From Mycobacterium sp. Root265 (GTDB lineage: Bacteria; Actinomycetota; Actinomycetes; Mycobacteriales; Mycobacteriaceae), in the NCBI RefSeq assembly GCF_001428895.1, contig NZ_LMJA01000009.1:139041-203040 (forward strand): a DNA stretch of 64,000 nucleotides, given 5' to 3'. Positions 4,353-20,222 of this stretch are shown in pieces. A program made the position numbers and the translations under genes. The first letter of the stretch is position 1. Each line of letters starts with the position of its first letter. A model generated the notes under the pieces. That model saw only the letters and a list, made by a program, of their open reading frames with translations. It made no database searches and was not told the DNA's origin.

Positions 4353-5042
4353 TCAGACGCGGCCGGCGATGAACCCGGCTGCCTGCGGAATGAAACCCGA
4401 CGATTCGTAGTGGGTGTGCGCGAACGGGTTGCGCCCGCGCGAGCAGATCGGATCGCCGTCCGCGCAGAGGTCGATCCCGCGCCCGCTGAACGGCGGTCCC
4501 GCTGCGGTCAACGGGTAGCCGAACTTCGCGCCGGCGTTTCCGAATCCGACCATCGCGGCGACATTCCCGGCCAGGTTGCCGGGCAGCGGTGGCGCCGAAC
4601 CCATGTCGCCGATGCGATCACCGACCGGCGGCAGGCCGACAAGCATGTTGACGATTGCGGCCCCCTGCGAGTACCCGCCGAGCACCACCCGGGTGTTGGG
4701 GCAGTTCTGGGCCAGGTAGGCGACACGTCCGGCCGCGTCGACGGCGCCGTCGGCCGCGGTGAAGAAGTCGTAGGTCGCGGGATAGTTGATCCCGTAGGTG
4801 CTCAGGGTGCGCCCCCCGAGTTGCGGGCGCAGCGAATCCGCCAGCGCCTGGCCGACGCGGCCGATGCCGGGGGGCTCGCTGGTGCCGCGGGCGAAGAGCA
4901 GTTCGACGTCCGAGCACGGCTCGGCGGACGCGATCGGTGCGGGACCGGCCAGGACGGCGAGTGCAGTTATCAGTGCGGATCCCAGTGCGGCCGACCGGGC
5001 AGCCATCGTGCGCAGCTTCACGATCAACATCTTCACATTCAA
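4353..5042 (-). CDS. cutinase family serine esterase, secreted (copy 4)
   Basis: A fourth cutinase-like enzyme, up to 229 residues. The longest frame begins at a TTG (5042); ATG at 5030 (MLIVKLRTMAARS) is an equally good start. The signal peptide ends at IASAEPC. Motifs are VELLFARGTSEPPGIG, GGYSQGAAI (nucleophile), CADGDPICSRG (acid residue) and FAHTHYESSG (His). It starts only 3 bases from the stop of the EamA exporter gene (5046) on the same strand, so read-through from that gene is possible. Confidence 0.9.
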   Translation of the reverse strand: MNVKMLIVKLRTMAARSAALGSALITALAVLAGPAPIASAEPCSDVELLFARGTSEPPGIGRVGQALADSLRPQLGGRTLSTYGINYPATYDFFTAADGAVDAAGRVAYLAQNCPNTRVVLGGYSQGAAIVNMLVGLPPVGDRIGDMGSAPPLPGNLAGNVAAMVGFGNAGAKFGYPLTAAGPPFSGRGIDLCADGDPICSRGRNPFAHTHYESSGFIPQAAGFIAGRV

Positions 5043-5045
5043 AGG

Positions 5046-6056
5046 TTAGCTACGGCTAATCGGTTGCCCGGCCGACGGTTGCACGGGCGGGACGTCGGGC
5101 CAATTGGCCTGCGCCACCTGCTCGGTGCGGTCGCCCTGACGGGCAAGTGCCAGGCCGAGCAGAACCACTGCGCCGCCGACGGTCTGAGTGATGGTGATCG
5201 CCTCACCCAGCAGCGCCCAGGCGGTGAGCACGGCGAACAGCACTTCGGACAGCCCGACCAGCGAGGCGAACCGCGGGCGCAGCCGGGCCACACCCATGAT
5301 GCCCAGCGTGTAGGCGATGGCGGTCGGGATGAGCGCGAGCGCGATGACGGGGACGAACCACGGCACCGTCAGTCCGGCCACCACGGCGTTCTCGGCGCTG
5401 AAGTGCATCGGCATGATGCCGGAGACGCCGAGTGCGGCGACGGAGACGGCGCCGACGACCAGGCCGGCCGCGGCCAGCGTGATGGGGCTCAGTCCGGTGC
5501 CGTCGGAGCTCGCCTTCTCCGACATCATGAAGTAGCAGGCCGCGCAGACTGCGGCGGCGAGTCCCCACATCACGCCGGTCGAGTTGATGTGCGCGCCGGC
5601 GAAGACGTCGAGTACCAGCGTGATGCCGGTGATCGCGATGGCGACACCGGCCAGCGTCAGATTGCTCGGTCGGCGCCGGGTCCGTGCCCACAACCAGCCC
5701 ACCACCAGAATGGGCGCGGTGTATTCGAGCAGCAGTGCCACGCCCACCGACAGATGAGAGACGGCGTTGTAGTAGCAGAACTGGGCGCCCGCGACGGGGA
5801 CCACGCCGTAGGCGATGATCGTGCGGCGATGCTCCAGCGCCTCACGGACCCAACCCGGCCTGGCGAAAGTGGCGAAGACGGCCATGGCCAGCGCCCCGCC
5901 GGCCAGTCGTGCGGTCACCGCGGCGGTGGGGGTCCAGCCCGCCTCCATGAGCGATTTCGCCAGGGGGCCGGACAGGCCGAACGCGAAGGCGGACGTGATG
6001 GCGAACGTCAGGCCGAGCCGGAACCGGCTCGTGGACCGCGCGTCGGTCATCGTCAT
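5046..6056 (-). CDS. EamA/DMT family membrane exporter
   Basis: This is an inner-membrane transporter of the drug/metabolite superfamily with two EamA repeats and about ten hydrophobic segments. Such proteins usually export amino acids or metabolites; the substrate here is unknown. The ATG at 6056 is preceded by GGAG at a 6-base spacing and gives 336 residues starting MTMTDARS. The first EamA half begins with GLTFAITSAFAFGLSGPLA, the second with GVMWGLAAAVCAACYFMMS. It is divergent from the CGNR regulator gene, which is probably its regulator. Confidence 0.88.
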   Translation of the reverse strand: MTMTDARSTSRFRLGLTFAITSAFAFGLSGPLAKSLMEAGWTPTAAVTARLAGGALAMAVFATFARPGWVREALEHRRTIIAYGVVPVAGAQFCYYNAVSHLSVGVALLLEYTAPILVVGWLWARTRRRPSNLTLAGVAIAITGITLVLDVFAGAHINSTGVMWGLAAAVCAACYFMMSEKASSDGTGLSPITLAAAGLVVGAVSVAALGVSGIMPMHFSAENAVVAGLTVPWFVPVIALALIPTAIAYTLGIMGVARLRPRFASLVGLSEVLFAVLTAWALLGEAITITQTVGGAVVLLGLALARQGDRTEQVAQANWPDVPPVQPSAGQPISRS

Positions 6057-6074
6057 GAGGCGCTCCAAGATGTA

Positions 6075-6144
6075 ATGAGTAAAATGAATGTTGCTCATGA
6101 CAATATCGGTGACGGGAGTCATGCGTCAAATGATTTTCACTCAT
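6075..6144. promoter_or_regulatory. imperfect inverted repeat between divergent exporter and regulator
   Basis: ATGAGTAAAA (6075-6084) and TTTTCACTCAT (6134-6144) form an imperfect inverted pair in the short intergenic region. They could be half-sites for the adjacent CGNR regulator. The right half lies within the predicted start of that gene, so the true start may be downstream. Confidence 0.3.
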
Positions 6145-6687
6145 GACACGGAGCTCACACTGCGGGCCGCGTGCGTACTGATCAACAGCGACAGGGTCGA
6201 CGGCGACGAGCTGGGCGACATCGCCGGACTCGACGACTACCTGGCCGAGTTCGGCTGGACCGGACGCCGCGACCGCGACGACGCCGAACTCGCCGAGGTG
6301 CACCGCTTGCGGGAGCGGATCGGGCGGCTGTGGGCGGCCGCCGATGACGAGGAGCGCGCGGTCGGACAGGTCAACGCCCTGCTTTCCGACACCAAGGCCT
6401 CGCCCTGGCTGACCCGGCACGCCGAGATGCCGGAATGGCATCTGCATCTGGCCTCGATCCACGACCCGCTGGCGCGCAGGATGGGCGCCGAGATGGCCAT
6501 GGCGCTGGCCGACCTGATCCGCGGCGGCGAGCTGCGCCGGCTCAAGATCTGCGCGGCACCCGACTGCGAAGCGGTGCTGTTCGACGTGTCACGGAACCGG
6601 TCCAAGATCTTCTGCGACACCGGGAACTGTGGGAACCGCCAGCATGTGGCGGCCTACCGGGAAAGGCGCGGGAAAGAGGGGGACTGA
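6121..6687 (+). CDS. CGNR zinc-finger transcriptional regulator
   Basis: This is an ABATE/CGNR-type DNA-binding regulator. The N-terminal part (TELTLRAACVLINS) fits the ABATE domain and the C-terminus has the zinc finger LKICAAPDCEAVLFDVSRNR with IFCDTGNCGNRQH, including the diagnostic C-G-N-R. ATG at 6121 gives 188 residues; ATG at 6130 is another option. Members are often divergent from exporters, as here. Its 3' end overlaps the convergent proline-rich gene by 34 bases. Confidence 0.88.
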   Translation: MRQMIFTHDTELTLRAACVLINSDRVDGDELGDIAGLDDYLAEFGWTGRRDRDDAELAEVHRLRERIGRLWAAADDEERAVGQVNALLSDTKASPWLTRHAEMPEWHLHLASIHDPLARRMGAEMAMALADLIRGGELRRLKICAAPDCEAVLFDVSRNRSKIFCDTGNCGNRQHVAAYRERRGKEGD

Positions 6688-7553
6688 AGGTCGTTCACCG
6701 GGCGAACGGACAACAAGTCGGCCGCATGGTGCGACAAAGGGCTCAGCGGGTGCAGCGAACCGCCGGGGTCTCTTGGTCCGAGCAGTTCCTTCCATTTCGG
6801 CGGATCGAGCTTCGACCCGTTCGAAGCATCACCAAGGCCGTTGTTGGTGTCGGACTGCGTCTGATCGGCGTCCGGCGCAGACTTCGACTGATCGGAGTCT
6901 GGCCTGCCGGCTCGTGTCGGAGCGCCCGCGACGGGGGTCTCCCTGCTCCACCACTCGGTGCCTGAGACTGAATAAGGTTCTGCAGCAGAAGAATAAAGGG
7001 ATCGCGGCGCCGGATCGGTGGTCCCTCCGTAGGTGCCGGCTCCGCCTTCGGGTGCATAGGCCGAACCTACGCGGGGTGCGGGCGTCTCATATCCCGGGGC
7101 CACCCAAGGTGCAGTCTCCCCGGCATCGGCTCCGGTGGTGGTCTCTGAGGTTCGGCCGCCGTTGTCGATCAGCGGTGGAACACGGTCCTTCTCACGGCGT
7201 GACGAGTCGTCGACGGGTGCCGGCGCGGCGCCCCCTGCGGCAGGGGTGCGGAGCGCTTGTTCGAGGAATTGCCGCCAGGCTTGCAGTGCCGTCAGCAGCT
7301 GCTGGGTGTGGTCGGCGGGCGCGACTGTCGGCTGAATCGGCGGCGGGCCGAAGGCCGGCGGCATCGGGGTGCCGAACCCGGGGGGCATCGGGGGGATCGG
7401 CGGCGGAACGAGCGGCATTGCCGGAGAGGGCAATTGGGGCATCACCGGGAATGCGAAGCCGGGCGCCACTGCTGCGCTCGCGACCTGTTCCAGGTACTGC
7501 CGCCACGCTTGCAGATAGGCAAGGAGGTTCGGATCGTGCTGCGGCATGGTCAT
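6654..7553 (-). CDS. proline-rich protein with duplicated LQAWRQ(Y/F)LEQ motif; last gene of the shell operon
   Basis: I do not recognise a family. The 299-residue protein starts at an ATG overlapping the stop of the FAD enzyme (ATGA). Two nearly identical amphipathic segments stand out: LLAYLQAWRQYLEQ (residues 10-23) and LLTALQAWRQFLEQ (86-99). They are joined by a Pro/Met/Phe-rich linker (about 31-79, PPIPPMPPGFGTPMPPAFG). The remainder is polar and apparently disordered, with a late PPKWKELLGP patch. There is no signal peptide. Short repeated motifs on flexible linkers suit a tethering, scaffold or cargo-docking protein, which would fit its place behind an HK97-fold gene; that role is inference. 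Confidence 0.8.
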   Translation of the reverse strand: MTMPQHDPNLLAYLQAWRQYLEQVASAAVAPGFAFPVMPQLPSPAMPLVPPPIPPMPPGFGTPMPPAFGPPPIQPTVAPADHTQQLLTALQAWRQFLEQALRTPAAGGAAPAPVDDSSRREKDRVPPLIDNGGRTSETTTGADAGETAPWVAPGYETPAPRVGSAYAPEGGAGTYGGTTDPAPRSLYSSAAEPYSVSGTEWWSRETPVAGAPTRAGRPDSDQSKSAPDADQTQSDTNNGLGDASNGSKLDPPKWKELLGPRDPGGSLHPLSPLSHHAADLLSVRPVNDLQSPSFPRLSR

Positions 7554-9775
7554 CTTCGTTCCTCCAGGAATGGCGATGGGAAGCTGGCGCTACTCGGTGG
7601 CGAGGACGGGGCGTCCAACGGGTGGGGAAGTGACTGCGCGGCATATCGGGCATCGAGGTTACGCAGCGGACGAGTGTCGGCCGGTTCCCGATTCTCCAGA
7701 TCGAAGATGTAGCAGTAGTCACCGGCCGGTGTCGGCATCCGGATCGGGCTCGACAAGCTCTGGTCGAGGAACCCATAGGGAAACCGCCAGTCGAGCGTGG
7801 TGTTTTCGCGACGATCGGCACCCCGGGTCGCGACCCAGACGTAGTGGTCCAGGATGGCGTTGACCGCGTGACGGCCCGATTCGCAGGCCGCTTCCATGGA
7901 GGTCATCCGGGTGAAGGTCTTGGTCCACGTGCCGGCGAAGACGACCGAGTTGTGGTGCACCTGATAACCGCCGTGGCGGGCTTGCCACACGTGGCGCTGC
8001 AGCAGATCCTCCAGCCACCACTGCTCGTTCGGCCGGTAGGTCCAGGACGTGCCGTGCGGATTCCAGGGATCGCCGCCGGGACGGTTTGGCCAGTCGCCGA
8101 CGATCGGTATGAGATAGGGCGTTTCGTTGCGGATCGGGTGACCGGTGTCCGGCGCCAGATGTAGCCCGGTGTCGAGTGTGTACCAGGCGGGCCACGGCAG
8201 GATCCCCTCCGGACGGGTCCCGTCGACGGTGGTGAGCGCGTCGACGATCTGCCGCCACACCTCGGTGGCGATCTCGTCTGCGGTGCAGTCGCGGGCGGCC
8301 TTGCCGCGGCCGGATTCGTCGCGCAGGTGCTGCGACGCAGTGTTGAAATCGCCGATATCCACCGACAGCACCGAGACGTAGCCATTCTGGGCCAGATTGG
8401 GTCGCTGTTCCCACATTCCGTGTTGGTTGATCGAGGACAGCGCCCACTCGGTGCCGGAGTAGTACATGTGCCCGCGCAGCAACTGGAACTCGGTATCGAA
8501 GAAGTACTGGATACCACTGAGGGTTTGAAACCGGTCCCACGGCACTCGGCCCATCTGATTTACGGCGTATGGATCTCGCCTCGTGTGCGGCCGGGTGGAC
8601 CCCGGCTGGAGCGGGCCGTCGGGTGGAGGTGCCGACGTCGTGAAGCCGTCCAGTTCGGCCACCGTGCCCCCGGTGCCGGTTGCGCGCATCGTCGCCGTGA
8701 TCCGCTCGGCGCCGGGAGCATCGACGGCCACCACGGTGTAGTCCGGTGTCACCCGAGTTTCGTCGGCCAGTGTCACCCGGGCGCGGGGGCGAAGATATGG
8801 CGGCTGTGCCGGGTCGACCACGGGCGGATCGATGCTCGCGGCCGCTGCATGCACGAATCGCACACCGAGCCGGACCAGATGGCGATACCAATGGTCGAAC
8901 CACGACTCGGTGGTGGGCGCGTTGAGGACTCCGTCGGCCTTGTTGTCGCGGCGGTCCATCTGGAGTTGCAGCTGCAGATAGGTGGTCAGATTGGTGCGGG
9001 CGTCTCCCCAGCGGGCGTCGAATGCGGCCAGCACCTTGGGCATTTCGAGCAGGTACCGATCGAACTGCGGCGAATAGTGGAAGCGACGGGTGCCATCGGC
9101 CTGCCGCCCGACGAAGAAGTCGTAGGCCGATTGGTTCTGCAGTTCGGTGGCGCGGCGCGGCGGGCTCGTCACGAGGTACTGCAGCAGCCGGCTCACGAAG
9201 TTCTGCACATCGCCGGGCGAGAATCCCAGACTCATGAGTTGTCGAACAACGCTGACGAATTCACCGGGGCTGCGGGGCGCCTCGCGCGGAAACACCAGGG
9301 ACGGCTTGCCGGCCAGCGTCGTGCCCTGGGTGACAACGCGTTTGACGTTGTCCAGTACCGTCCGTGAACTCGGCTTCCACCGGAGCGCGCCGCCCGGGTC
9401 GGTCGTCGGCTCATATATCGGGATGCGGTTGAACAGATCCCAGGTGTGCAGGTAGTAGGCGGGGAAGAAGCGAAAGCCATGCTCGCCCGCGACGGCATCA
9501 ACGGGCGGTGTCGGGCGGCCGCGGCAACCGGGAAAGGGACGCAGCTGCGCGCAATTTCCCCCCGTGGTTACGGCTTTCGCGTACTGCGACGCCGCGAGTC
9601 CGCCGAGTTTGACCGGCAGATTGCCGCGCTCATCCGCTCGGGCCTCGTACACCGTGACCTCGAAGCCACGTTCGGCGAGTTCCTGAGCTGAGGTCAACCC
9701 GGCGATGCCCGCACCCAGCACCGCCACGGTGGGGCGGCGGGCGCTGGACGCTGGGGTGATGATCGGTTCGTTCAT
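7550..9775 (-). CDS. FAD-dependent oxidoreductase, phytoene desaturase/HpnE-like
   Basis: This is a large (741-residue) flavoprotein. The N-terminal dinucleotide-binding motif GAGIAG lies at residues 21-26 with the ribose-binding Glu in VYEA (44). Further on is GEHGFRFFPAYYLHTWDL, a block seen in carotenoid/squalene desaturase-like amine oxidases. The C-terminal FAD contact is probably in the VVFAGTWTKTFTRMTSMEAA region. Such enzymes desaturate or dehydroxylate isoprenoids. The ATG at 9775 overlaps the stop of the SCP2-like gene; a much longer upstream frame is not the likely start. Its length exceeds the usual about 450-500 residues of desaturases, so additional insertions are present. Its neighbours suggest an isoprenoid substrate. 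Confidence 0.85.
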   Translation of the reverse strand: MNEPIITPASSARRPTVAVLGAGIAGLTSAQELAERGFEVTVYEARADERGNLPVKLGGLAASQYAKAVTTGGNCAQLRPFPGCRGRPTPPVDAVAGEHGFRFFPAYYLHTWDLFNRIPIYEPTTDPGGALRWKPSSRTVLDNVKRVVTQGTTLAGKPSLVFPREAPRSPGEFVSVVRQLMSLGFSPGDVQNFVSRLLQYLVTSPPRRATELQNQSAYDFFVGRQADGTRRFHYSPQFDRYLLEMPKVLAAFDARWGDARTNLTTYLQLQLQMDRRDNKADGVLNAPTTESWFDHWYRHLVRLGVRFVHAAAASIDPPVVDPAQPPYLRPRARVTLADETRVTPDYTVVAVDAPGAERITATMRATGTGGTVAELDGFTTSAPPPDGPLQPGSTRPHTRRDPYAVNQMGRVPWDRFQTLSGIQYFFDTEFQLLRGHMYYSGTEWALSSINQHGMWEQRPNLAQNGYVSVLSVDIGDFNTASQHLRDESGRGKAARDCTADEIATEVWRQIVDALTTVDGTRPEGILPWPAWYTLDTGLHLAPDTGHPIRNETPYLIPIVGDWPNRPGGDPWNPHGTSWTYRPNEQWWLEDLLQRHVWQARHGGYQVHHNSVVFAGTWTKTFTRMTSMEAACESGRHAVNAILDHYVWVATRGADRRENTTLDWRFPYGFLDQSLSSPIRMPTPAGDYCYIFDLENREPADTRPLRNLDARYAAQSLPHPLDAPSSPPSSASFPSPFLEERR

Positions 9776-10176
9776 CCGCGATCCGCCCGGAGCGCGTTCA
9801 ATAAGCCGGGTTGTGAGGGTGCCCGCACGGCGGCATGCACGTAGGCCTTGAGCGTGTCGTGGGCTCGCAGGATGTCGTCGAGCGTGCCGTGCACAGTCAA
9901 ACTGCCCGTCTCCACGGCGCGGTCCAGCGTGATCACCGCGTCGAGCACGTCGAGCACCGTGTCCCGTGACACCTTGACCCGAGTGCCGGCCGTCGGGTCG
10001 ACGCCATTGGTCACCTCGAGCCGCCGGCCCCCGCTCAGTGAGAAGCATTCGGAGTCGATGTCGAGGCCGACCACCAGAGGTCCGAGGGTGTCGAGCACGA
10101 TGCGGTAGCTGTCCGGTGCCTCGTCGGCAAGGTGGCCGATGGACTGCCGCAGGAGTGCCGAAATACGTTCAGCCAT
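9772..10176 (-). CDS. SCP2 sterol-binding-like lipid carrier
   Basis: A 134-residue protein from MAERISALLRQ. It shows the pattern of the SCP2 domain: early helices, a beta-sheet (YRIVLDTLGPLVVGLDID; RVKVSRDTVLDVLD), then the G-x-L-x-V-x-G-x-L turn (VETGSLTVHGTLDDIL). SCP2 proteins hold a hydrophobic ligand such as a sterol or long isoprenoid. The start overlaps the CrtC-like gene by 8 bases and the stop overlaps the FAD enzyme start, so translation is coupled. In this operon it may carry the prenyl intermediate to the oxidase; that is inference. Confidence 0.65.
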   Translation of the reverse strand: MAERISALLRQSIGHLADEAPDSYRIVLDTLGPLVVGLDIDSECFSLSGGRRLEVTNGVDPTAGTRVKVSRDTVLDVLDAVITLDRAVETGSLTVHGTLDDILRAHDTLKAYVHAAVRAPSQPGLLNALRADRG

Positions 10177-11191
10177 GGAGAAACTCGAATACTCCGGTAC
10201 CGATGAAGTCGATGTCCTTGCCGTTGATCGACCCTGTGACCGCTGCCGTTCCAGTGGATTCGCAGAGCACAGTGGAGTCGGTGAGTGACATCTCGCTGGG
10301 CTGCGCGAGCCGCGCGTAGGACTGCGGCCGGAACTCGACGTGCACGGTGTCACCGGCTCTGCTCGCGGCCACGTCGACGCATTCGGGTACGCCGGGTACA
10401 TCGCCATCGAGCAGCAATCGCATCGGTGGTGGGAGCGTGCAATCCGCCTGACGGGCGAGCACACCGGACGTACGGACCGTAACTGACGCATGGCGGAAGA
10501 TGGCGGCAGGTTCGTCCTGGTGCCATACATAGAGTGCCTGTGACAGGTAGCGATGTCGTCGCCGGTCGGTCATCCGCAGGAACACCAGCGACCATGGCAC
10601 GTCCGGATCGCTGGGAAGCACCGTCGCCCATTCCCAGCCGAAGTCGTCGCCCCACCAGAACCGGCCCCAGTTGTGGTCGTGATAGGCGATGTCGTTGTCG
10701 AAGCGGTGTTCTCGGTCGCCAATGCGCAGCCACCCGGTGGCGTGCAGGCGTGGTACGAACAGCCAGCTCATCCGGCCCGACCCCACCGGTTGATTGTTCA
10801 CGACGAAGGGCCGGCTGACCGAGACGAACCAGAGTTCGCCTTTGATGCCCTGTTGGGGGAGGTCGATTCTGAGCTCGTAGCCGTTGCGTCCGATGTGCAT
10901 GCCGCTGTCGCCAATGGACAGGTTACCGAGATCGGCTGCAATGACGAGATCGTCCTCATCGAAACGTTGGATAACGCCGTGCCATTCGTCATCGTGTCCG
11001 ATGACGATGATCCTGGGGACGGCGCGAATCCGGCCGCCCGGCGCGACCTCCGTGTCGAGGCTGAAGTTGATGAGTACACGGCACTCCTCGGCGTGAATGA
11101 CGAAGTGGTGCCATTCCTTGAATCCGTGTGGGTTGGCCGCACCGATGGTCGGTGTCCGCATGAAGTCGCTGGCGGCCAGTGAGGCGGTCAT
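10169..11191 (-). CDS. CrtC/AttH-like lipocalin-fold protein (carotenoid 1,2-hydratase-like)
   Basis: 340 residues from the ATG at 11191, which overlaps the preceding stop (ATGA); a start three codons upstream (11200) is possible. The motif AYHDHNWG (169-176) followed by FWWGDDFGWEWA is characteristic of the hydroxyneurosporene synthase/AttH-like family. Carotenoid 1,2-hydratases of this family add water to the terminal double bond of acyclic carotenoids; relatives catalyse pericyclic or isomerisation steps. There is no signal peptide. Placement between a prenyl-diphosphate synthase and an isoprenoid-type oxidase supports action on a prenyl chain. The exact reaction is unknown. Confidence 0.75.
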   Translation of the reverse strand: MTASLAASDFMRTPTIGAANPHGFKEWHHFVIHAEECRVLINFSLDTEVAPGGRIRAVPRIIVIGHDDEWHGVIQRFDEDDLVIAADLGNLSIGDSGMHIGRNGYELRIDLPQQGIKGELWFVSVSRPFVVNNQPVGSGRMSWLFVPRLHATGWLRIGDREHRFDNDIAYHDHNWGRFWWGDDFGWEWATVLPSDPDVPWSLVFLRMTDRRRHRYLSQALYVWHQDEPAAIFRHASVTVRTSGVLARQADCTLPPPMRLLLDGDVPGVPECVDVAASRAGDTVHVEFRPQSYARLAQPSEMSLTDSTVLCESTGTAAVTGSINGKDIDFIGTGVFEFLHG

Positions 11192-11454
11192 CGCAACCAC
11201 CGCGTTGCGTCGGTGGTCGTGCGCACGGTGTTGGTGGCGGCGGTGTCGGTGTGCTGTCCCAGGCTTTCGATGCCGGCACCCATGCTGGCAAGACCCAGCA
11301 GCAGGTGCACGAAGTCGTCGGCAGCGCCGGCTGTGACTGCTTCCGGGGCTCCGGCCAGGGTGTGCACCATTCGTCCGATGCTCGCCAGGCCGACCAGATA
11401 GCCGATGAAGCTGCAGTCATCGGCAAGTGCGGCAGTGGGATCGGTCAGTGTCAT
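11188..11454 (-). CDS. small hydrophobic protein with internal repeat, unknown function
   Basis: I do not recognise this 88-residue protein. Two similar hydrophobic segments occur: IGYLVGLASIGRM (about 17-29) and HLLLGLASMGAGI (about 50-62). They share a (V/L)-G-L-A-S-(I/M)-G core. This could be a helical hairpin that is peripheral to a membrane or packs in an oligomer. Both ends overlap neighbours by 4 bases (ATGA), which argues that it is a real, stoichiometrically translated component of the operon. Confidence 0.7.
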   Translation of the reverse strand: MTLTDPTAALADDCSFIGYLVGLASIGRMVHTLAGAPEAVTAGAADDFVHLLLGLASMGAGIESLGQHTDTAATNTVRTTTDATRWLR

Positions 11455-11909
11455 GCGAATCCCTCGGGCCGCAGACGCGCGAGCATGGCGTCGTCGAGGC
11501 CCTGCCCGACGACCGCGTCGGCCAGCAACTCGGCCCAGGCGGTCGGTGCGGCATTGGGTTCGGCTGGACCGTCGAGCACGTTGAGGCTGACCGTTTCCCA
11601 GACGCGGCGCAGATTCTCCACGGCATCGGAGGCCACCAGGCGATCGCGCAACAGTGCGCCTTCCGGTGTCCGGCCATAGCGCATGCCCTCGGAGACGAGC
11701 ATGTCGTGAATGCGGCGCGCCGCAGCGGGGTTGCCCAGCACCGCACGGCGGGCACCGAGGAGCAGGTCGAACACTGCCGGGCTCTGTCCCTCGACGTCAT
11801 CTGGGGGCGCGGGTAACAGTTGCGGTGCCGCGTTTTCGGCGAGGTCGAGGGTGGCTTCCGTGATCCGCTCCAGCTCGGCCAGCACGCCGATCAGGTCCTC
11901 GGCGTTCAT
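11451..11909 (-). CDS. unknown helical protein in the shell/isoprenoid operon
   Basis: 152 residues from ATG 11909, overlapping the prenyl-synthase stop (ATGA). The longer frame to 11978 is unlikely given that coupling. It is predicted by eye to be mostly helical, with segments LIGVLAELERITEATLDLAE, VFDLLLGARRAVLGNPAAAR and LLRDRLVASDAVENLRRVWE. No metal-binding or catalytic motif is evident and there is no signal peptide. Its position directly after the GGPP-synthase-like gene suggests a partner or second pathway step, but I cannot assign one. Confidence 0.75.
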   Translation of the reverse strand: MNAEDLIGVLAELERITEATLDLAENAAPQLLPAPPDDVEGQSPAVFDLLLGARRAVLGNPAAARRIHDMLVSEGMRYGRTPEGALLRDRLVASDAVENLRRVWETVSLNVLDGPAEPNAAPTAWAELLADAVVGQGLDDAMLARLRPEGFA

Positions 11910-13105
11910 CGCGTGCGCTCGTGTACGTAGTCGACCAGGCTGCTCAGCATCTCGCGGTGCTGGCTGGGCGGTAGCCAATCCAGCTCGGCCAGCACGGACT
12001 CCGCCGCCTCAGCGTGGCGGGCGGCAACGTCGCGGGCATGGCCCAACGAGCCGACCCGCTGGATCATCTCGAAGAGCCACCGGATGTCGTCGAGTGTCTT
12101 GGCGTCGGTGTGACGCTGGGCGTGCAGGAATCCGTCGATCTCAGTTCGCCCGGCCAGGGAAAGCTCGCCGCGCCCGGCCAGGCGATCCAACAGGTCGGTG
12201 AGGTTGAGTTCAGCGTCCATGGCGGGTCGGCGTCTGCCGAGAATCTGTACGGCGCGTTCGCGCTCACCGTCGGGGAGATTCCGCAGCATGTGCAGCAGCA
12301 TCAGGGTGCGCTTGCCTTCCCACAGGTCGCCGCCGATCTCCTTGCCGTAGTCTTCGGGATCCCCACGCAGATTGAGCAGGTCGTCGGTGATCTGGAAGGC
12401 GGCACCGATGTGCCGGCCGAATGCTTCCAATGGGACGAGCCGGTCGACCGGAGCGCCGGCGGCGAGGGCGCCGGCTTGTAGCGGTGTGATGAACGAGTAC
12501 CAGCTCGTCTTGAGCTCGACCATCTTCAGGTAGTCCGCGTCGTCCAGCTGCCACGTATTGCTCTTGACCCAGTCGAGTTCGATGGCCTGACCGTCCACGG
12601 TCTGCCTGGTCATGTGGGCGACGGCGCGCAGGATGCGCAGAGCCGGTCCGAGCCCGACGCGTTCGACATTGTCGAGCAGTGGTTGGAGCGTGAGCGACAA
12701 CATGGCGTCACCGACGTTCACGGCGATGGGGACGCCGTGATCGATGTGCATGGTGGGTTTGCCGCGACGCCACCAGGATTCGTCTTCGATGTCGTCGTGG
12801 ATGAGGAAGGCGTTGTGATACAGCTCGAGCGTTGCCGCGGTGGGTAGGACCGCTTCGAGGTGCCCGCCGAGACCAAGGCAGATGGCGATCGCCAGCGCGG
12901 GCCGTAGCGCTTTGCCGCCGCGTTGCGGATAATCGAGGATCAGGTCGTGCAGGCTGCTGGAGCCTTGTTGCCCCGAGCCGTACAGCCTTTCGATCTCGCC
13001 GTCGCAGAGGCTCTTGCATTCGGCGAGATACGTTTCGAGCGAGTCCGCCGCATCCTGAGGCCCAGCCGTTTCAGGGACCCTTGACGGCGACGATACCGCT
13101 GGCAT
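11906..13105 (-). CDS. polyprenyl (geranylgeranyl-type) diphosphate synthase
   Basis: A trans-isoprenyl diphosphate synthase that condenses IPP with an allylic diphosphate. The first Asp-rich motif DDIED is at residues 104-108, followed by RRGKPTMH. The second is DDLLN (241-245), the DDxxN form found in many GGPP synthases, then YGKEIGGDLWEGKRT. ATG 13105 gives 399 residues. The N-terminus (about 1-20, PAVSSPSRVPETAGPQDAAD) is Pro/Ser-rich and looks disordered, and the gene start lies 35 bases inside the HK97-like gene. In established family 2B encapsulins prenyltransferases are known cargo with disordered N-terminal targeting regions, so this extension deserves attention. A C-terminal extension is also present compared with about 300-350-residue homologues. 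Confidence 0.92.
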   Translation of the reverse strand: MPAVSSPSRVPETAGPQDAADSLETYLAECKSLCDGEIERLYGSGQQGSSSLHDLILDYPQRGGKALRPALAIAICLGLGGHLEAVLPTAATLELYHNAFLIHDDIEDESWWRRGKPTMHIDHGVPIAVNVGDAMLSLTLQPLLDNVERVGLGPALRILRAVAHMTRQTVDGQAIELDWVKSNTWQLDDADYLKMVELKTSWYSFITPLQAGALAAGAPVDRLVPLEAFGRHIGAAFQITDDLLNLRGDPEDYGKEIGGDLWEGKRTLMLLHMLRNLPDGERERAVQILGRRRPAMDAELNLTDLLDRLAGRGELSLAGRTEIDGFLHAQRHTDAKTLDDIRWLFEMIQRVGSLGHARDVAARHAEAAESVLAELDWLPPSQHREMLSSLVDYVHERTR

Positions 13106-13907
13106 CCTTGATCCTCGTCGCGAAGCTGATACGCACCGCAAGTTCGACATGGCCTGCAGCAGTTTCTCCGATCACCGCCAGACTCGGTGGAACGCCGATC
13201 GCAATATCCACCGGTTCCTCGCCGGGAGACGCACCTGCAGCCCGACCGTGGGCGATCAAATTGCGCCGACCCACCAGAAGAATTCGAACCTTGTCCTTAT
13301 TGGCGGCGACCCCATCGATCGTCGTCGATCGGTGTAGCGAATTTGCGTTCGCAGCGGCGAGTAGCGAGTCGAGGACTGAGTAGCCGCTTACAAACTGGCT
13401 GAGCTTCACGAGACCGGCGGTGTTGGTAAGCAGCGTGGAAGGCGCGCGATATCCGGCGTCCTCTACCCTGGCCCTAGCAGGAATCAGTTGATCGAGGATT
13501 TCCTGTGGCGTAATAACGGTTGGAGCGACCGGGGCGATAGTCAGACCGACGGCTTGGACAGCGGTGTAAAGAAATTTCAGAATGATGTCATCGACCGTGC
13601 GGGCCAGTTCCACGGTGTGGCTGATGACAGTTGCGAGCAAGGCATCAGGATTGGGACCTGACGCTTGTGCGAGCGTCACGTTGATCTGAACGTCTTTGGG
13701 GTCGAGTGTCAGCGAAGCAGTGAAGAACGGTCCAGGAACTGATGGATTCGAAGGCTGGACCGCAGTTGCTGTGTCGCCGCGAACCTTGGTCGCGCCAGGA
13801 TCGCCCGTCTCCCAGTGAGGAATGCTCTGCCAGACGATACTGGTTTGCTCAAAAGTCTCTCGAACTTGTTTATTGGCGAGCGCCAATCGGTCGGCAGTCA
13901 AGTACAT
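13071..13907 (-). CDS. HK97-fold, encapsulin-like candidate shell protein
   Basis: 278 residues from ATG 13907 (GAGGGGG eight bases upstream). I aligned it by eye with family 1 encapsulins. The order of elements matches: an early E-loop-like beta region (FFTASLTLDPKDVQINVTLA), a spine-helix region (VELARTVDDIILKF), an A-domain block (AGYRAPSTLLTNTAGLVKLS, then GYSVLDSLLAA), and a C-terminal P-domain sheet (PVDIAIGVPPSLAVIGET, then VELAVRISFATRIKD) that ends IVAVKG as coat proteins do. There is no cyclic-nucleotide-binding insert as in family 2. No phage genes (terminase, portal, tail) are nearby, so this is not a prophage head gene in context. G+C is lower (about 52-60% in sampled lines) than in neighbours (about 68%). 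HK97-fold is my call from pattern only and needs a structural search. Confidence 0.6.
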   Translation of the reverse strand: MYLTADRLALANKQVRETFEQTSIVWQSIPHWETGDPGATKVRGDTATAVQPSNPSVPGPFFTASLTLDPKDVQINVTLAQASGPNPDALLATVISHTVELARTVDDIILKFLYTAVQAVGLTIAPVAPTVITPQEILDQLIPARARVEDAGYRAPSTLLTNTAGLVKLSQFVSGYSVLDSLLAAANANSLHRSTTIDGVAANKDKVRILLVGRRNLIAHGRAAGASPGEEPVDIAIGVPPSLAVIGETAAGHVELAVRISFATRIKDASGIVAVKGP

Positions 13908-13975
13908 GCCCACCACCCCCTCGGTGTGTCATCGATTCTCCCAGATCAGCGTGTGTTTCGCGTCCGCCGATCGAA

Positions 13976-16900
13976 CTATTTCTGTAGCAAGGCGACTTCA
14001 CCGCCGGGTGGCAACTCTCCTCGCAACGCCGCGTCGCAGTGCGCCATGTGCAGCGTGGCCACCGCATCTCCGGGCAGCAAAGTGCTGCAGTGCTCAAACG
14101 CTGCACGCGCTCGGTCGAATTCGCCGTAGTCGAACAATGCAAATGCCTCATCGAATGCGGGCTGCGCAGCGTATTTCGCCGCACGCAAGAGTTGTGGATC
14201 CTCGTCGTAGACCTCATAAACGGTCACCGGCCGGCGCCGATTCACCACCATGACCCGTTCCATCCGGCGGATGCGGAACTGCTCTGGATCCGCCAGTTGA
14301 GCGTATGTCGCGTCAGAGATGAGCAGGGCCGAGTCGTAGCGTTTGGTGGTGCCTTCGATGCGGGCGGCCAGGTTCACGGCGTCGCCGATGATGCTGAGCA
14401 CCATACGATTCACGCCGCCGACGAGCCCGAGGCCGACGACGCCGGTGTTGATGCCGATGCCCACCCGAAAGGCATTCGAGCCGAGGGCCAGTCGTTCGGC
14501 GTTGTGTTCCTGCAGCGACCGCAGCATCCCGAGGCCTGCCCGCAAGGCGTTGTCGGGACCGGATTGGAACACGGCCAGGATCTCGTCGCCGCGGAGGTCT
14601 TGGATCACCCCGTCGGACGCGATGATCGGCAGTTCGACGGCACGGAAGAAGCCGGTCGCAAGGTTGTTCGCCTCAGCGATATCCATGTCCTCCAGCAACG
14701 TCGTGTATCCCCGGATATCGGAGATGAGTACCGTCATCTGCCGCTCGACGCGATGGCCGCTGCGGACGCGGCGGATGTCGTCCAATTCCAAGATGCGGAG
14801 CAACTCGTTGGGTACAAAGCGCGATTGCATGTCGAGAAGCGACAGCCGCTGCTCGTCGGCCTCGCGCAGTCGCGCCTCGAGTTGAAAGTTCCACAGGGGA
14901 GCGGCGCACTGGGCGCACACGAACATGACCGCGTCCTCGTGTTCGGGGGTGAAGTTGCGGTCCAGTTCGGTGTGCTCGGCATAGATGACACCGATGACGT
15001 TCTCCTGCAGTTTGATCGGTGCGGCAATCACCGACGGCGTCCCGCTGGTGGGGTTGGCCATCACCCGGATCGGCGCGCCGGTTTCGGCGACCCGGCGGAC
15101 CAGGTCGCGGTCGAACGGCACGTCGGTCCACGGGCCCTCGACCACCGAGGTGACGCCGCCTTCGTGGACCGCGCGGACACCCAGACGTTCACCCTCGCCG
15201 GTGAGCCCCACGATCCGGCCGGCGCCGGTCATGTCCGCAACGGTGCCGAGCGCCAGGCCGGCCAGGCCATCACGGGTTCTCGCTGCCGAGAGGGCACGCA
15301 CCAGCTGGTGCGCTCCGGCAGGGTCGATGCCGGCGGATTCGTCGTGCACCAGATCGCGGCTGAGCAACCACGGATAGGCATGGGCAAGACGTTCCGTACG
15401 CACCGTCAACCCCACGCTCTGGAAGCGTTGGTAGGCCGACCGGAGCATGTGCTGGCGAAGCCTGGGCCGGCCGGACCGGGCGTACAGGGTCGCCGCCTCC
15501 TCATAGGCGGTGGCCGCGATCAAGGGCAGCTGATGCGTCTCGGCCAGTTCGATGGCCTGCTCCAGCAACCGTTCCGCTTTGCGGTGTTGTCCGCGGGCGC
15601 TGGCCCATGTCCCCTCGATCAGCGCATATTGAGCGGCGTAGTTGGCCGGTGCATCGGCCGCCCATTTACGGTGCAGGGCAAGGGCCGTGCGCACCGAGCG
15701 CCGGGTGGCGCGGTCGTTCGGCGCCGCCTGAATTCGGCTCAGGGCGTCCACCATGTGGATGAGCTGCATCACCGGGTTACCGGCCATGCCACCGATATGC
15801 CTCAGCGCTTCGTCTGCGACGGCCAGCGCGCCGGTGTAGTCACCAGCCCAGAAATGCAGGCCGACCTTCATGGTGGCGGCCACGCTCAAGCCGACTCCGT
15901 CATTTTCGAGCCGGGCAGCGGGAACCACAACGCGTTCGTCGTATCCGCTCTCGCCGGCCAGCAGGAACACATCTTCGCTGCGCCCCATCAGGTTCAGGCA
16001 GATCTGTTGCACGGCCTGACACAGCGTGGCGGGCGCGAGTTGCGACCTGATGCCGGGAACGATGGACTGCGCCAGAGCATCGATCTCGGCCAGCGGCCGC
16101 CCCAGCCAGAAGGATTGCGAAAGGACCGCTGCGGCTTGGTATCCCGCGAACTCCTGGTCGCCTTGGTCGAGTGCGGGGCCGATGGCCTCGCGAAGCTGGC
16201 TCAGGCTCTCCCGAATCGGGTGCCGCCAGTGACGGATGAAGTGCAGGTAGATGAACAACGTGTGTGGGTGCGCTTCGCGGAACTCCTCCCGCTCGGCCAG
16301 TGTCAGCGCGACCTCGCCGAATCGTTGGCTACCCGCGCGGTCCCCGGTGACCACCAACAGGATCGCGTAGTTCGCGAGCATGAGTGGCGAGGCCGGGGTG
16401 TGGCCGTGAGCCAGCGCGAGATCGAGTTGTTTGCGAACCAGCAGAGGGAAGTAGTTGGGCTGGATGCTGTAGCAGATGTGAAAGAGCTCGCCGAGGATCC
16501 GCTGGATCTCGATGACGCGCTGATCTTCGCAGTACCGGAGCGCGAGAAGCCGCTCGTTGCTCCAGTGCCGCATCGTCAGTTTCATATTCGCCAGGGCAAG
16601 GCCCATCCGGGGCTTGCCCGGATTCCGCGGCAACGGTTCACCCAGCTCGTCCAGCGCTTGCAGGCCGGTCTCCAGGGCATCTTGCAGCCGGTTCTGGGCC
16701 AGTCTCCCCTTGATCCGCAGGTATGCCACCCGCGCGCGATCGGCCGGGTCGGTCAGGACGTCGTCGGCCTCATCGAGCAGGGTGTGCAATGCCGGAACGT
16801 CGCCGACGAGCAGCGCGGCCTCGGTGGCATCGAGATGCAACTCCCGACTCAGGGCGAAGTGCGTTTCCCAGCGCCGTTCGCCGAGCAATGACAGACCGTT

Positions 16901-18292
16901 CCGGCAGTAGTCGAGTGACAGCGGAAAGGACGCCTGTGCACGGGCTTTGCGTGCCGCGCGGCGAAGGACCTCGACGTAGTGAGCGCGTTCGGGACCGTCG
17001 GGTAGCCCCTCGCCTCCGATGCCCACGTGGCGCGCGGCCTCGAAGAGTCGGTCTTCGCCGAGTGTGACCAGGCGCCGGCCGATGCGTAGATGCGTTTCCC
17101 GGCGTGCCTCTGCGCTGAGTCCGTTCCCGGCCACCTCGGCCACCCGGTCGTGACTGAACCGGTACCGGGCATCGTGACTGATCGCGTTGGCAATCCGCTG
17201 ACCCCGGTGGTCCAGTGCCTCCAATTGGCGCAGTTCGAGCGCCGCCCACAGTGCCTGTGCCACCGCGTGTGGTGGCTGGGCGGCCGCGGCCACGGCGTCA
17301 TCGAGATCGAATTCTGCACCGATGCACGTCAGCGACCGCAGGACCTCGCGGTCAGGCGGACGAAGCTGATCCAGGTAGCGGCCCATCGACTCGGCGGCCG
17401 TCGCCGTGACCTCGATGGAGCTGAGCATCCGTAGGTCCCAGCTGGGATCGCCGGTCACGGCTGTCGGCGTGAGTGCCCCTTCGATCTGGGCGCGGTATAA
17501 CAGCTGTCGGATCTGGAGTGGGTTGCCGTCGGTCCGGTAGTGGAACTCTGCGGCCACGTCGGAGAGCTCCGCAGTGGGACCGCCGGCCGTGGCCAGCAAG
17601 TCGTGGACGTCTGCGCGAGACAGCGGCTCCAGGCGCATCTCGCGCACGTTGGCCAGTGTGATGCCGGCTGCGGCCGGATCGAACTCGCCGGCACGATGCG
17701 CACCCAGCATTACGACGTTGCGCGGCGATACCGTCAGCAGTTCGGCCAACAACAGCAGAGAGTCACGATCCGCCCACTGCAGGTCGTCCACGGCGAGCAC
17801 CACAGGACGGTAGGCGGCCGTCTCGGATATCAGGCGTATTGCCGCACGGTGCAGGCGCCGCCGGGCGTCGGCGGCGTTGAGGTCGGTGATGCGAGAGCGC
17901 TCACCGAGGACGGCAGCGAGTTCGGGCACGAGGTCGCCCAGCACGCCGGACATCGTCGACATCGCGGCGCTCAGCCCGTCGCGCCAACGGTCGCGTTCGG
18001 CAGCGGGGGTGGACTCCATGGACCGAACGATCGAGCTCAGCGCATCACCGAGCGCAGCATAGGGAGCCGGCGCGCCGTCTCGGCAGCGCCCGTAGGCGAA
18101 TATGCAATTGCGGCTTGAGACCTCGGCGCCGAAGGCCTGGATGAGCGTCGACTTGCCCACTCCCGGTACGCCGGCGAGCAAGATGCATCCGCCGCTGTCT
18201 CGGCCCGCTTCATCTACTGCTGTTCGTAGATCCGCAATCTCCTGCCTTCGATCGACCACCCGCCCGTCGAAGTCGAACACGGGCGTTGTCAT
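13976..18292 (-). CDS. giant AAA-ATPase / TPR-like / GAF / class III nucleotide cyclase protein
   Basis: A 1438-residue signalling protein. The N-terminal AAA_16-type ATPase has Walker A GVPGVGKS (41-48) and Walker B-like VVLAVDDLQWADRDS near 165-180. A long helical, TPR-like middle follows, then a GAF domain (about 990-1130). The C-terminal class III cyclase domain (from about 1185) contains VLISDIRGYT and RGDEILAVF, which supply the two metal-binding aspartates, and SIIGDAVNLAARIE. The Lys usually three residues before the second GD is Asp here (DLRGDE), so substrate choice is uncertain. It is first in the operon, 68 bases upstream of the HK97-like gene, and may sense a ligand through GAF/TPR. 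Confidence 0.9.
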   Translation of the reverse strand: MTTPVFDFDGRVVDRRQEIADLRTAVDEAGRDSGGCILLAGVPGVGKSTLIQAFGAEVSSRNCIFAYGRCRDGAPAPYAALGDALSSIVRSMESTPAAERDRWRDGLSAAMSTMSGVLGDLVPELAAVLGERSRITDLNAADARRRLHRAAIRLISETAAYRPVVLAVDDLQWADRDSLLLLAELLTVSPRNVVMLGAHRAGEFDPAAAGITLANVREMRLEPLSRADVHDLLATAGGPTAELSDVAAEFHYRTDGNPLQIRQLLYRAQIEGALTPTAVTGDPSWDLRMLSSIEVTATAAESMGRYLDQLRPPDREVLRSLTCIGAEFDLDDAVAAAAQPPHAVAQALWAALELRQLEALDHRGQRIANAISHDARYRFSHDRVAEVAGNGLSAEARRETHLRIGRRLVTLGEDRLFEAARHVGIGGEGLPDGPERAHYVEVLRRAARKARAQASFPLSLDYCRNGLSLLGERRWETHFALSRELHLDATEAALLVGDVPALHTLLDEADDVLTDPADRARVAYLRIKGRLAQNRLQDALETGLQALDELGEPLPRNPGKPRMGLALANMKLTMRHWSNERLLALRYCEDQRVIEIQRILGELFHICYSIQPNYFPLLVRKQLDLALAHGHTPASPLMLANYAILLVVTGDRAGSQRFGEVALTLAEREEFREAHPHTLFIYLHFIRHWRHPIRESLSQLREAIGPALDQGDQEFAGYQAAAVLSQSFWLGRPLAEIDALAQSIVPGIRSQLAPATLCQAVQQICLNLMGRSEDVFLLAGESGYDERVVVPAARLENDGVGLSVAATMKVGLHFWAGDYTGALAVADEALRHIGGMAGNPVMQLIHMVDALSRIQAAPNDRATRRSVRTALALHRKWAADAPANYAAQYALIEGTWASARGQHRKAERLLEQAIELAETHQLPLIAATAYEEAATLYARSGRPRLRQHMLRSAYQRFQSVGLTVRTERLAHAYPWLLSRDLVHDESAGIDPAGAHQLVRALSAARTRDGLAGLALGTVADMTGAGRIVGLTGEGERLGVRAVHEGGVTSVVEGPWTDVPFDRDLVRRVAETGAPIRVMANPTSGTPSVIAAPIKLQENVIGVIYAEHTELDRNFTPEHEDAVMFVCAQCAAPLWNFQLEARLREADEQRLSLLDMQSRFVPNELLRILELDDIRRVRSGHRVERQMTVLISDIRGYTTLLEDMDIAEANNLATGFFRAVELPIIASDGVIQDLRGDEILAVFQSGPDNALRAGLGMLRSLQEHNAERLALGSNAFRVGIGINTGVVGLGLVGGVNRMVLSIIGDAVNLAARIEGTTKRYDSALLISDATYAQLADPEQFRIRRMERVMVVNRRRPVTVYEVYDEDPQLLRAAKYAAQPAFDEAFALFDYGEFDRARAAFEHCSTLLPGDAVATLHMAHCDAALRGELPPGGEVALLQK

Positions 18293-18830: not shown

Positions 18831-20222
18831 ATGGTTCGGCGTTCGGTGACACGGCTACAGGTGAGCGGCTACCGCTTCCTGACGCGCAGAATGGAATACG
18901 CGTTGGCATGCCGGGATACCCGCATGCTCGACGACCCCATCCGCAGCCAGTCGATGGCACTGGCGGCCGGCGTCGTGCTGGCCGCGATCGTGGTGGCGGT
19001 GTGTGCGGTGCTGGCACTGATGCGTCCACACGGAAGCCTGGGCGCCGATCCCATCGTCATGGCCCGGGACTCCGGTGCGATGTACGTGCGCGTCGGCGAC
19101 ATCATGCACCCGGTGCTGAATCTGGCGTCCGCGCGGTTGATCGCCGGGACCCCGGCGGTGCCGCGGCTGGTGAGCGCGGCCATGATCGCCGACGCCGAAC
19201 ACGGTCCGCTGATGGGTATCCCGGGCGCGCCGGGCAATATCGCACCGGCGCTCGCAGACGATCAGCAGGCCTGGACCGTATGCGATGACGGCGGCGACCG
19301 GACCACCACGGTGATCATCGGCGCGCCCGGGCAGCACCCGGTCGCTCCGCCGGTGCTGGTCACCGCGGCCCAGGAACGCGCGCGCGGAACCTACCTGCTA
19401 CACGCCGGGCGCCGCGCCGCGGTGGATCTGCGCGACCGCGCAGCGGTGCGCGCGCTGCGACTGGACCGCGTTGTCCCGCTGCCAGTTTCGGCCGCACTAC
19501 TGGACCCCCTCCCGGAGGCGACGCCGATCGTGGCGCCCCGGGTGCCCGGCGCCGGAGGACCCGGACCCGCCGGGCTGGCCGAGTTCCGGGTCGGCGAGGT
19601 GCTGCGGGTGCCGCGGGCGGACGCGGCCGATCACTACGTGGTGCTCGCTGATGGAGTGCAGCGCGTGGGGCCGGTGGCGGCGGATCTGATTCGTTTCGCC
19701 GACTCTCACGGCGGCGGCGAGATACCCGATGTGCCGGCCGACCGTATCGCCGCCGTGCCGGTGGTGGACACGTTGACGGTGACCGATCTGGCCGATCCGA
19801 CGGTGGCCGGTGCCGACCTCGGTGGCGGGCTGTGCACGCGCTGGCAGTGGCGCAACGGATCGGTGCCGGACACGGCCGTGCTGGCACCCGGCACCCTGCC
19901 CGACCAGGAACGCGCCCTGACACTGGTCCAGGCCGATGGCGACGGGCCCCGGGTCGACGCCGTGTCGGTTCCGCCCGGGCACAGTCTCTACCTCCGGGCG
20001 GCAGGCGTCGCCGGGGAGGGCATGTCGACCGGACCGCGGTACCTGGTCACCGAATCCGGGGTGGCATTCGGCGTCGGTGACGCGCACGCTGCCGAAGCCC
20101 TCGGGCTGCCGCAGGCACCGGGCGCCGCGCCGTGGCCGCTGCTCGCGCTGCTACCGCGTGGACCGGAGCTCAGCGTCGCCCGCGCTGCCGTCGTGCAGGA
20201 CAGCGTCCGCGTCCCGTCGTGA
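18831..20222 (+). CDS. eccB4: ESX-4 type VII secretion protein EccB4
   Basis: EccB is a membrane component of the type VII secretion core complex with a large periplasmic domain. The N-terminus TRLQVSGYRFLTRRMEYALAC is the family signature. One membrane helix lies near residues 43-63 (MALAAGVVLAAIVVAVCAVLAL) and the rest is extracytoplasmic. The length (463) matches EccB4 of M. tuberculosis (about 470, Rv3450c). Its 3' end overlaps the convergent mycP4 by 72 bases. In M. tuberculosis it follows directly on the cutinase genes; here the shell operon lies between. Confidence 0.95.
   Translation: MVRRSVTRLQVSGYRFLTRRMEYALACRDTRMLDDPIRSQSMALAAGVVLAAIVVAVCAVLALMRPHGSLGADPIVMARDSGAMYVRVGDIMHPVLNLASARLIAGTPAVPRLVSAAMIADAEHGPLMGIPGAPGNIAPALADDQQAWTVCDDGGDRTTTVIIGAPGQHPVAPPVLVTAAQERARGTYLLHAGRRAAVDLRDRAAVRALRLDRVVPLPVSAALLDPLPEATPIVAPRVPGAGGPGPAGLAEFRVGEVLRVPRADAADHYVVLADGVQRVGPVAADLIRFADSHGGGEIPDVPADRIAAVPVVDTLTVTDLADPTVAGADLGGGLCTRWQWRNGSVPDTAVLAPGTLPDQERALTLVQADGDGPRVDAVSVPPGHSLYLRAAGVAGEGMSTGPRYLVTESGVAFGVGDAHAAEALGLPQAPGAAPWPLLALLPRGPELSVARAAVVQDSVRVPS

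Follow-up and report, generated by a model that had tools for sequence, protein, structure and literature searches.

A candidate encapsulin-like isoprenoid operon in Mycobacterium sp. Root265

A stretch of 64,000 nucleotides from Mycobacterium sp. Root265 (assembly GCF_001428895.1, contig NZ_LMJA01000009.1, positions 139,041 to 203,040; hereafter the window) carries a block of nine minus-strand genes that runs from position 18292 down to 6654 (Table 1). Neighboring genes overlap at seven of the eight junctions, by 35 or 80, 4, 4, 4, 8, 4 and 4 nucleotides from the shell candidate to the repeat protein, and the sole non-overlapping junction is a gap of 68 nucleotides between the cyclase and the shell candidate. 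A first-pass annotation of the window had described nine same-strand, mostly overlapping genes, and their coordinates and content are as it gave them. It read the block as an operon that makes and modifies a prenyl compound inside or on a virus-derived shell. From the comparisons reported here we lean modestly towards an encapsulin-like isoprenoid nanocompartment, whose shell would belong to a family outside the four described ones and would be built around a tailored prenyl lipid.

Table 1. Positions of the nine genes of the block, of the genes that flank it in the window, and of another prenyl operon at the corresponding site in two loci of the same genus (L105 and L107). E, expectation value; FAD, flavin adenine dinucleotide.
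Feature	Position	Strand	Description
Cyclase	13976..18292	-	1438 residues; AAA_16 104.9 bits, Guanylate_cyc (class III) 36.2 bits, GAF 27.0 bits (Pfam)
Shell candidate	13071..13907	-	278 residues; probable HK97 fold by profile alignments; outside known families
Polyprenyl diphosphate synthase	11906..13105 (or start 13150)	-	PF00348 198 bits, above the cut-off of 27
152-residue conserved protein	11451..11909	-	no Pfam match at E 1; mean column identity 79% in alignment A3 (24 rows)
88-residue protein	11188..11454	-	conserved N-terminal part, variable linker, C-terminal RWLR
CrtC/tocopherol-cyclase/DUF2804-like protein	10169..11191	-	invariant YHDHNWG; alignment A5, 24 rows
SCP2-like putative lipid carrier	9772..10176	-	134 residues; weak PF02036
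FAD flavoprotein	7550..9775	-	741 residues; Pfam NAD_binding_8, Amino_oxidase (FAD Rossmann families)
Tail (repeat) protein	6654..7553	-	299 residues; two YLQAWRQ(Y/F)LEQ-type helices, Pro-rich linker, (K/R)SL(F/Y) motif
EccB (ESX-4-type locus)	18831..20222	+	right flank; PF05108 458.9 bits
Cutinase	4353-5042	-	left flank
EamA transporter	5046-6122	-	left flank
Other prenyl operon	L105:1968-11322; L107:3006-12031		eccB-EamA slot

The block is headed by an AAA_16-GAF-cyclase protein which, judging by its domains, is a candidate sensor or regulator. The best NCBIfam model for the polyprenyl diphosphate synthase is NF041169, a family 2 encapsulin cargo polyprenyl transferase, at 182.6 bits and below the cut-off of 450. 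The first-pass labels of the CrtC-like and SCP2-like proteins are weakly supported: some members of each family match weakly, and the window proteins lie below the gathering cut-offs. CrtC-like members weakly match DUF2804 (14 of 24) and Tocopherol_cycl (7 of 24), with involvement of the YHDHNWG region, and a PDB search with the CrtC-like protein gave no match at E 1. We take CrtC, tocopherol cyclase and DUF2804 to be related families, and the window protein, which resembles them weakly and falls below the cut-offs of both models, is a candidate prenyl hydratase or cyclase. PF02036 matches 14 of 22 SCP2-like members weakly (best E 0.0031, below the gathering cut-off) and the window protein not at all at E 1; in the PDB the SCP2-like protein finds an SCP2-like chain at E 0.77. 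The flavoprotein, whose PDB matches are restricted to the first 70 profile positions, is a candidate prenyl desaturase or oxidase. At E 1, Pfam holds no match for the shell candidate, the 152- and 88-residue proteins or the repeat protein, and PHROGs none for these four or the CrtC-like protein; a single PDB sequence for the 152-residue protein (E 0.94) was taken as chance. Searches of the nine proteins against Pfam and NCBIfam returned no terpene cyclase, sulfotransferase, short-chain dehydrogenase/reductase, polyketide synthase or non-ribosomal peptide synthetase match. Alignments A3 to A7 of the operon proteins have 24, 23, 24, 22 and 16 rows, picked from the sequences available. Comparison of start sites with orthologues found that many shell orthologues lack an in-frame upstream start and that the shorter starts of the synthase and the 152-residue protein suit most orthologues.

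Shell matches at E 0.001 or better occur in 7 of 301 genomes of a sample at the level of the family Mycobacteriaceae, one of them doubtful (G087, E 5.3e-4 over 87 residues, kept in the tally and not accepted as a member). At class level the shell is matched in 6 of 394 genomes, all of one genus. Strong CrtC-like matches fall in the same six genomes of what is apparently the same sample of 394, in which the CrtC-like profile reaches eight genomes in total, the other two by weak partial matches. The flavoprotein was found in 3 of 296 phylum-level genomes, all of which carry the shell. A scan of a species-genome collection with the shell alignment, carried out with two peptide patterns that can miss members, yielded 68 pattern matches, which reduced to 41 relatives and 40 loci; a genome scan with the single shell sequence gave no relative. 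By title, 39 of the loci belong to Mycobacterium or Mycolicibacterium and the remaining one to Pseudonocardia eucalypti.

The synthase, the 152- and 88-residue proteins, the CrtC-like protein, the SCP2-like protein and the flavoprotein adjoin the shell gene in the same order in 39 of these 40 loci, and the fortieth (L059) stops at a contig end. The cyclase is matched in all 40 loci, in some only partially, and lies downstream on the opposite strand in Pseudonocardia (L053). Matches to all eight genes from the cyclase through the flavoprotein are thus present in 39 of 40 loci, including partial matches to the flavoprotein at a contig end (L032) and to several genes in L058. The gene order was repeated in five of five further genomes whose neighborhoods were read. 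Because the order recurs in these five genomes and in 39 of 40 loci, the operon is not a chance arrangement. Shell homologues without the isoprenoid genes, which would have spoken against the first-pass reading, were not seen among the loci, and the linkage of shell and enzymes is better supported than the HK97 fold of the shell.

At L058, from Mycobacterium lepraemurium, the operon looks decayed, with partial matches to the shell, CrtC-like protein, flavoprotein and cyclase. Two genomes of another family (L109, L110) have a distantly CrtC-like protein (30% over 131 residues), with no other operon gene in the stretches examined. Distant CrtC-like matches in G540 and G575 were set aside, the surrounding stretches examined containing no further operon gene.

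The shell candidate matches no described encapsulin family by sequence model. NCBIfam, like Pfam and PHROGs, gave nothing at E 1 for the window protein, and six shell members gave only stray one-member matches (best E 0.078 in PHROGs and 0.036 in Pfam). It matches neither PF04454, which marks Family 1, nor PF19307 and the cNMP domain of Families 2 and 2B, nor PF05065 of Family 3, from whose peptide-type cluster the gene set of the operon also differs; Family 4 is recognized by an A-domain protein of about 100 residues (PF08967), and the shell candidate has 278 residues and no Pfam match. Three further HK97-type genes are present in Mycobacterium sp. Root265 (G000): a Family 1 encapsulin (PF04454, G000:C14:23191-23943), a Family 2 encapsulin (PF19307, G000:C27:323127-323846) and a phage-type capsid (G000:C25:204832-205692), its product sharing 88.6% identity with the Mycobacterium phage Gail protein. 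Another genome, G052, has two full-length Family 1 matches (C1:2247513-2248265 and C1:1268059-1268811).

Comparison of profiles with hhalign points to an HK97 fold. The shell profile (A2) comprised 39 members, the decayed L058 and the cut-off L059 having been dropped. Against four Family 1 encapsulins, 225-230 columns align colinearly from end to end, with local scores of 35.7, 29.95 and 30.3 and global scores of 35.2, 29.9 and 28.3 in three set-ups; as a yardstick, Family 1 and PF05065 score 29.9 against each other. None of 100 column shuffles, and none of 150 in a second run, reached the score, local or global. The seven other operon proteins, used as a control, scored at most 17.5 locally against Family 1 and gave no extended alignment. 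When 20 sequences, drawn from the 85 genomes with a match, were added to bring the Family 1 set to 24, the local score was 26.6 over 161 columns, compared with a maximum of 22.2 in 300 shuffles, 19.1 for the reversed profile and 20.3 over 9 columns for the highest other operon protein. Against seven PF05065 proteins (from 7 of 11 loci; L066, L067, L071 and L073 were left out), 214-243 columns align, and the global scores of 34.5, 38.5 and 32.0 are well above every shuffle (maximum 14.6). A six-member shell profile retrieved 12 PDB sequences below threshold, ten of which are Thermotoga maritima encapsulin (E 0.12-0.25), aligned from residue 94 to 178-184. An HK97 fold is likely on these alignments, as is a kinship with encapsulins and virus shells that sequence comparison can barely detect, and the HK97-like shell protein of the first-pass annotation is probably correctly named, with weaker or failing results in some tests.

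The tail encoded at the end of the block was found in 39 of 39 cases (the window and 38 loci). The flavoprotein frame continues into it in 17 of the 39, the decayed L058 among them, giving frames of 911-1072 residues, and in the other 22 the tail is a separate gene. That the two are fused in nearly half of the cases indicates that the tail and the flavoprotein act together. Of the 39 tails, 38 carry one or more YLQAWRQYLEQ-type motifs (26 carry two), and 28 have a (K/R/Q)(S/T)L(F/Y) motif. In six carrier genomes a strong tail match is found once per genome, beside the operon (in two pieces in G112). Eight further matches in six carrier genomes are weak, seven of them with internal stops, and a role for the tail as a loading domain used across the genome was rejected, as only weak matches lie outside the operon. 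In Family 2 encapsulins, according to a published survey (PMC8346489), cargo loading is mediated, or proposed to be mediated, by unannotated extensions that are largely disordered. It is on this likeness that we infer a similar role here, and the tail is a candidate cargo-loading or scaffold tail.

Several results weigh against an HK97-type compartment. Two Rab11b sequences (E 0.055 and 0.057) rank above the encapsulin in the PDB search with the six-member profile, and the 39-member profile keeps a single encapsulin chain (E 1.2) along with a ribosomal protein (E 1.3). In global mode the set of 24 Family 1 sequences gives 8.5, less than the best shuffle (11.5). The local score for PF05065 is unstable: one set-up gives 41.4 and the two others 21.0 and 20.6, of which the last is reached by 3 of 150 shuffles. 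The score against three Family 2 sequences was reached by 11 of 100 shuffles, which is weak evidence of distance, for Family 1 and Family 2 miss each other in such comparisons as well. Against a set of eight phage-type capsids, made up of seven annotated phage proteins plus that of this genome, the score of 15.5 lies inside 200 shuffles (maximum 25.4), and Family 1 encapsulins likewise fail against this set (15.9). Kinship with phage capsids like that of this genome, which we take to be of cluster-A type, was considered for an IPHW stretch that aligns and was rejected, the score being within the shuffles.

The rank of Rab11b, the unstable local PF05065 scores and the phage-capsid comparison, together with the lack of a convincing library family, would suit a 278-residue protein that is not of HK97 type at all. 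It would then be an unrelated protein with an accessory or regulatory role in an ordinary prenyl-lipid operon, its profile similarity having arisen by chance. Such an operon, with no recognised HK97-like gene, does stand at the same site in L105 and L107. We nevertheless consider this explanation unlikely: the local Family 1 score went unreached by shuffles with both the 4-sequence and the 24-sequence sets (0/300 with the latter), and the other proteins of the operon give no extended Family 1 alignment.

The second set of contrary results concerns evolutionary rate. Mean pairwise identity is 51.1% for the shell, 53.3% for the 88-residue protein, 65.3% for the SCP2-like protein, 69.4% for the CrtC-like protein, 71.2% for the cyclase, 73.5% for the flavoprotein (fused tails included), 74.0% for the 152-residue protein and 77.0% for the synthase. 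The comparison, from which L058, L059 and sequences under a length limit were excluded, used 39 shell, 37 synthase, 35 152-residue, 39 88-residue, 39 CrtC-like, 39 SCP2-like, 38 flavoprotein (with any fused tail) and 35 cyclase sequences. The shell is therefore the least conserved of the eight proteins compared, and its distances also track the others least, with correlations of 0.58-0.71 compared with 0.68-0.92 among the others themselves. Between L051 and L054 the synthase, CrtC-like protein, flavoprotein and cyclase are 89-95% identical and the shell 63%. In the genome pair G000/G029, Family 1 encapsulin is 83.0% identical and the shell candidate 49.4%; within the latter, the first 40 residues and residues 151-160 and 211-250 are conserved, and residues 111-120, 131-140, 171-180 and 191-210 are the most variable. 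Such low conservation is odd for a rigid icosahedral shell. The main puzzle is that either the shell exterior is under diversifying pressure or the constraints on it are weak.

Weak constraint would be natural if a domesticated HK97 protein formed no closed compartment and served instead as an open scaffold, a sheet or an incomplete shell, to which prenyl enzymes associated with membranes or droplets attach. The hydrophobic substrate chemistry and the SCP2-like carrier would suit a lipid surface, the Pro-rich helix-repeat tail would suit a tether, and an identity of 51.1% would suit a loosely constrained scaffold. The end-to-end colinearity with Family 1, however, suggests that the HK97 elements have been kept, and encapsulins are by definition self-assembling icosahedral shells (PMC8346489); we put an open scaffold at the same low probability as a protein unrelated to HK97.

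The remaining point concerns the 88-residue protein, which ends in RWLR in 33 of 39 cases. The RWLR codons (11188-11202 in the window) overlap both an (A/C)GGTGG that resembles a Shine-Dalgarno sequence and the ATGA at which the CrtC-like gene starts. Retention of the leucine through four synonymous codons and the choice between W and F are the sole hints of selection on the protein. With the overlapping ribosome-binding site as a confounder, RWLR is not claimed as a targeting peptide.

The operon lies in several genomic contexts. Clustering of flanking open reading frames, restricted to loci with flanks longer than 1200 bases and excluding L053, gave seven upstream contexts (36 loci) and seven downstream contexts (35 loci), the decayed L058 being one of each. 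In the window a second cutinase and truA lie beyond the EamA-cutinase flank. EccB is present in seven of eight genomes that have no shell match, and four of these loci were examined. The proposal that the block interrupts an ancestral cutinase-eccB4 order is borne out by the two that lack any such block, L106 and L108, one of which reads eccB-cutinase-cutinase-truA and the other eccB-EamA-cutinase-cutinase-truA. It needs qualification for L105 and L107, of the same genus, which hold about 10 kb between eccB and EamA in the form of a different prenyl operon. The polyprenyl synthase of this other operon is 40-44% identical to that of the window, and it also encodes an HpnE-like flavoprotein (below the cut-off of the model), a cyclase/AAA protein (Pfam check on L105 alone) and, outside known families, proteins of 475 and 514 residues; the shell query found nothing in it at E 0.1. 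The eccB-EamA slot may be a hot spot for prenyl operons. The several contexts and the one Pseudonocardia locus suggest that the operon is a self-contained, horizontally moving unit, which forms part of the reading we modestly favor and is held with the same reserve.

Occurrence in several contexts and a shell that evolves fast relative to the rest would also fit a capsid-derived anti-phage or phage-parasitic element, in which the shell interferes with capsids and the enzymes are passengers. This we regard as very improbable. The enzyme genes match in 39 of 40 loci, and no PHROG matches the shell candidate, the 152- and 88-residue proteins, the CrtC-like protein or the repeat protein at E 1. 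By tblastn the window shell has no relative among 50,697 phage and 72,556 plasmid records, nor does the shell family in a pattern scan of IMG/VR; no defence library was among the collections searched. With biosynthetic neighbors in 39 of 40 loci and no relatives in the phage, plasmid and IMG/VR collections, the shell candidate is not part of a phage or prophage, as is expected of an encapsulin.

Among known systems, as described in the survey (PMC8346489), the operon is like Family 2B in its logic, an HK97-type shell gene adjoining a polyprenyl synthase and tailoring enzymes in Actinobacteria. Family 2B cargo bears disordered extensions (PMC8346489), and the best model of the window synthase is likewise one of family 2 cargo, below its cut-off. 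Unlike Family 2B, the window shell has no PF19307 match or cNMP-binding domain, the cyclase is a separate gene, the enzymes are a flavoprotein, CrtC-like and SCP2-like set with no terpene cyclase match, and the extension is on the C-terminus of the flavoprotein. Family 1 is the most consistent colinear profile partner of the shell and similar in size, but the window shell has no PF04454 match, belongs to a different operon with several enzymes and, in the genome pair compared, is much less conserved. With Family 3, whose PF05065 capsids lie in natural-product biosynthetic clusters (PMC8346489), the operon shares an HK97-type protein within a biosynthetic operon and global PF05065 profile similarity; it differs in lacking a PF05065 match and in isoprenoid rather than peptide chemistry, a separation drawn from PF05065 proteins and the description of Family 3. 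By their sequence tests the operon falls outside all four described families, for all its likeness to Family 2B in logic.

In the encapsulin-like nanocompartment that we favor, the AAA-GAF-cyclase would gate expression or activity, and the 278-residue protein would assemble into an HK97-type shell. The polyprenyl synthase would make a prenyl diphosphate of C20 or longer; the flavoprotein would desaturate or oxidise the prenyl chain, the CrtC/tocopherol-cyclase-like protein would hydrate or cyclise a double bond, and the SCP2-like protein would carry the greasy product. The Pro-rich helix-repeat tail, as a separate subunit or fused, would anchor the flavoprotein to the shell. We hold more tentatively, and with the balance fractionally against it, that these parts make up a fifth encapsulin family that present family models miss, with a fast-evolving HK97 shell, a fixed operon that moves among mycobacteria, a desaturase-like flavoprotein docked by its tail and cyclase-gated formation of an undescribed cyclised or hydrated polyprenyl lipid. 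The first-pass reading of a prenyl compound made inside or on a virus-derived shell is supported in part, by the probable HK97 likeness and by the linkage; the tail fusions, the several contexts and the low conservation of the shell go beyond it.

No description of the operon came up among the titles and abstract openings listed in searches of open-licence PMC papers, preprints not included. The published encapsulin survey used hidden Markov model (HMM) searches supplemented with Pfam clan CL0373 (PMC8346489). If our reading is true, HK97-derived compartments have been undercounted, the shell candidate having no Pfam match at E 1. The operon would then also offer a case of a shell that changes faster than its enzymes, naturally occurring tails in fused and separate form with which to study cargo loading, and a starting point for finding a new mycobacterial isoprenoid.

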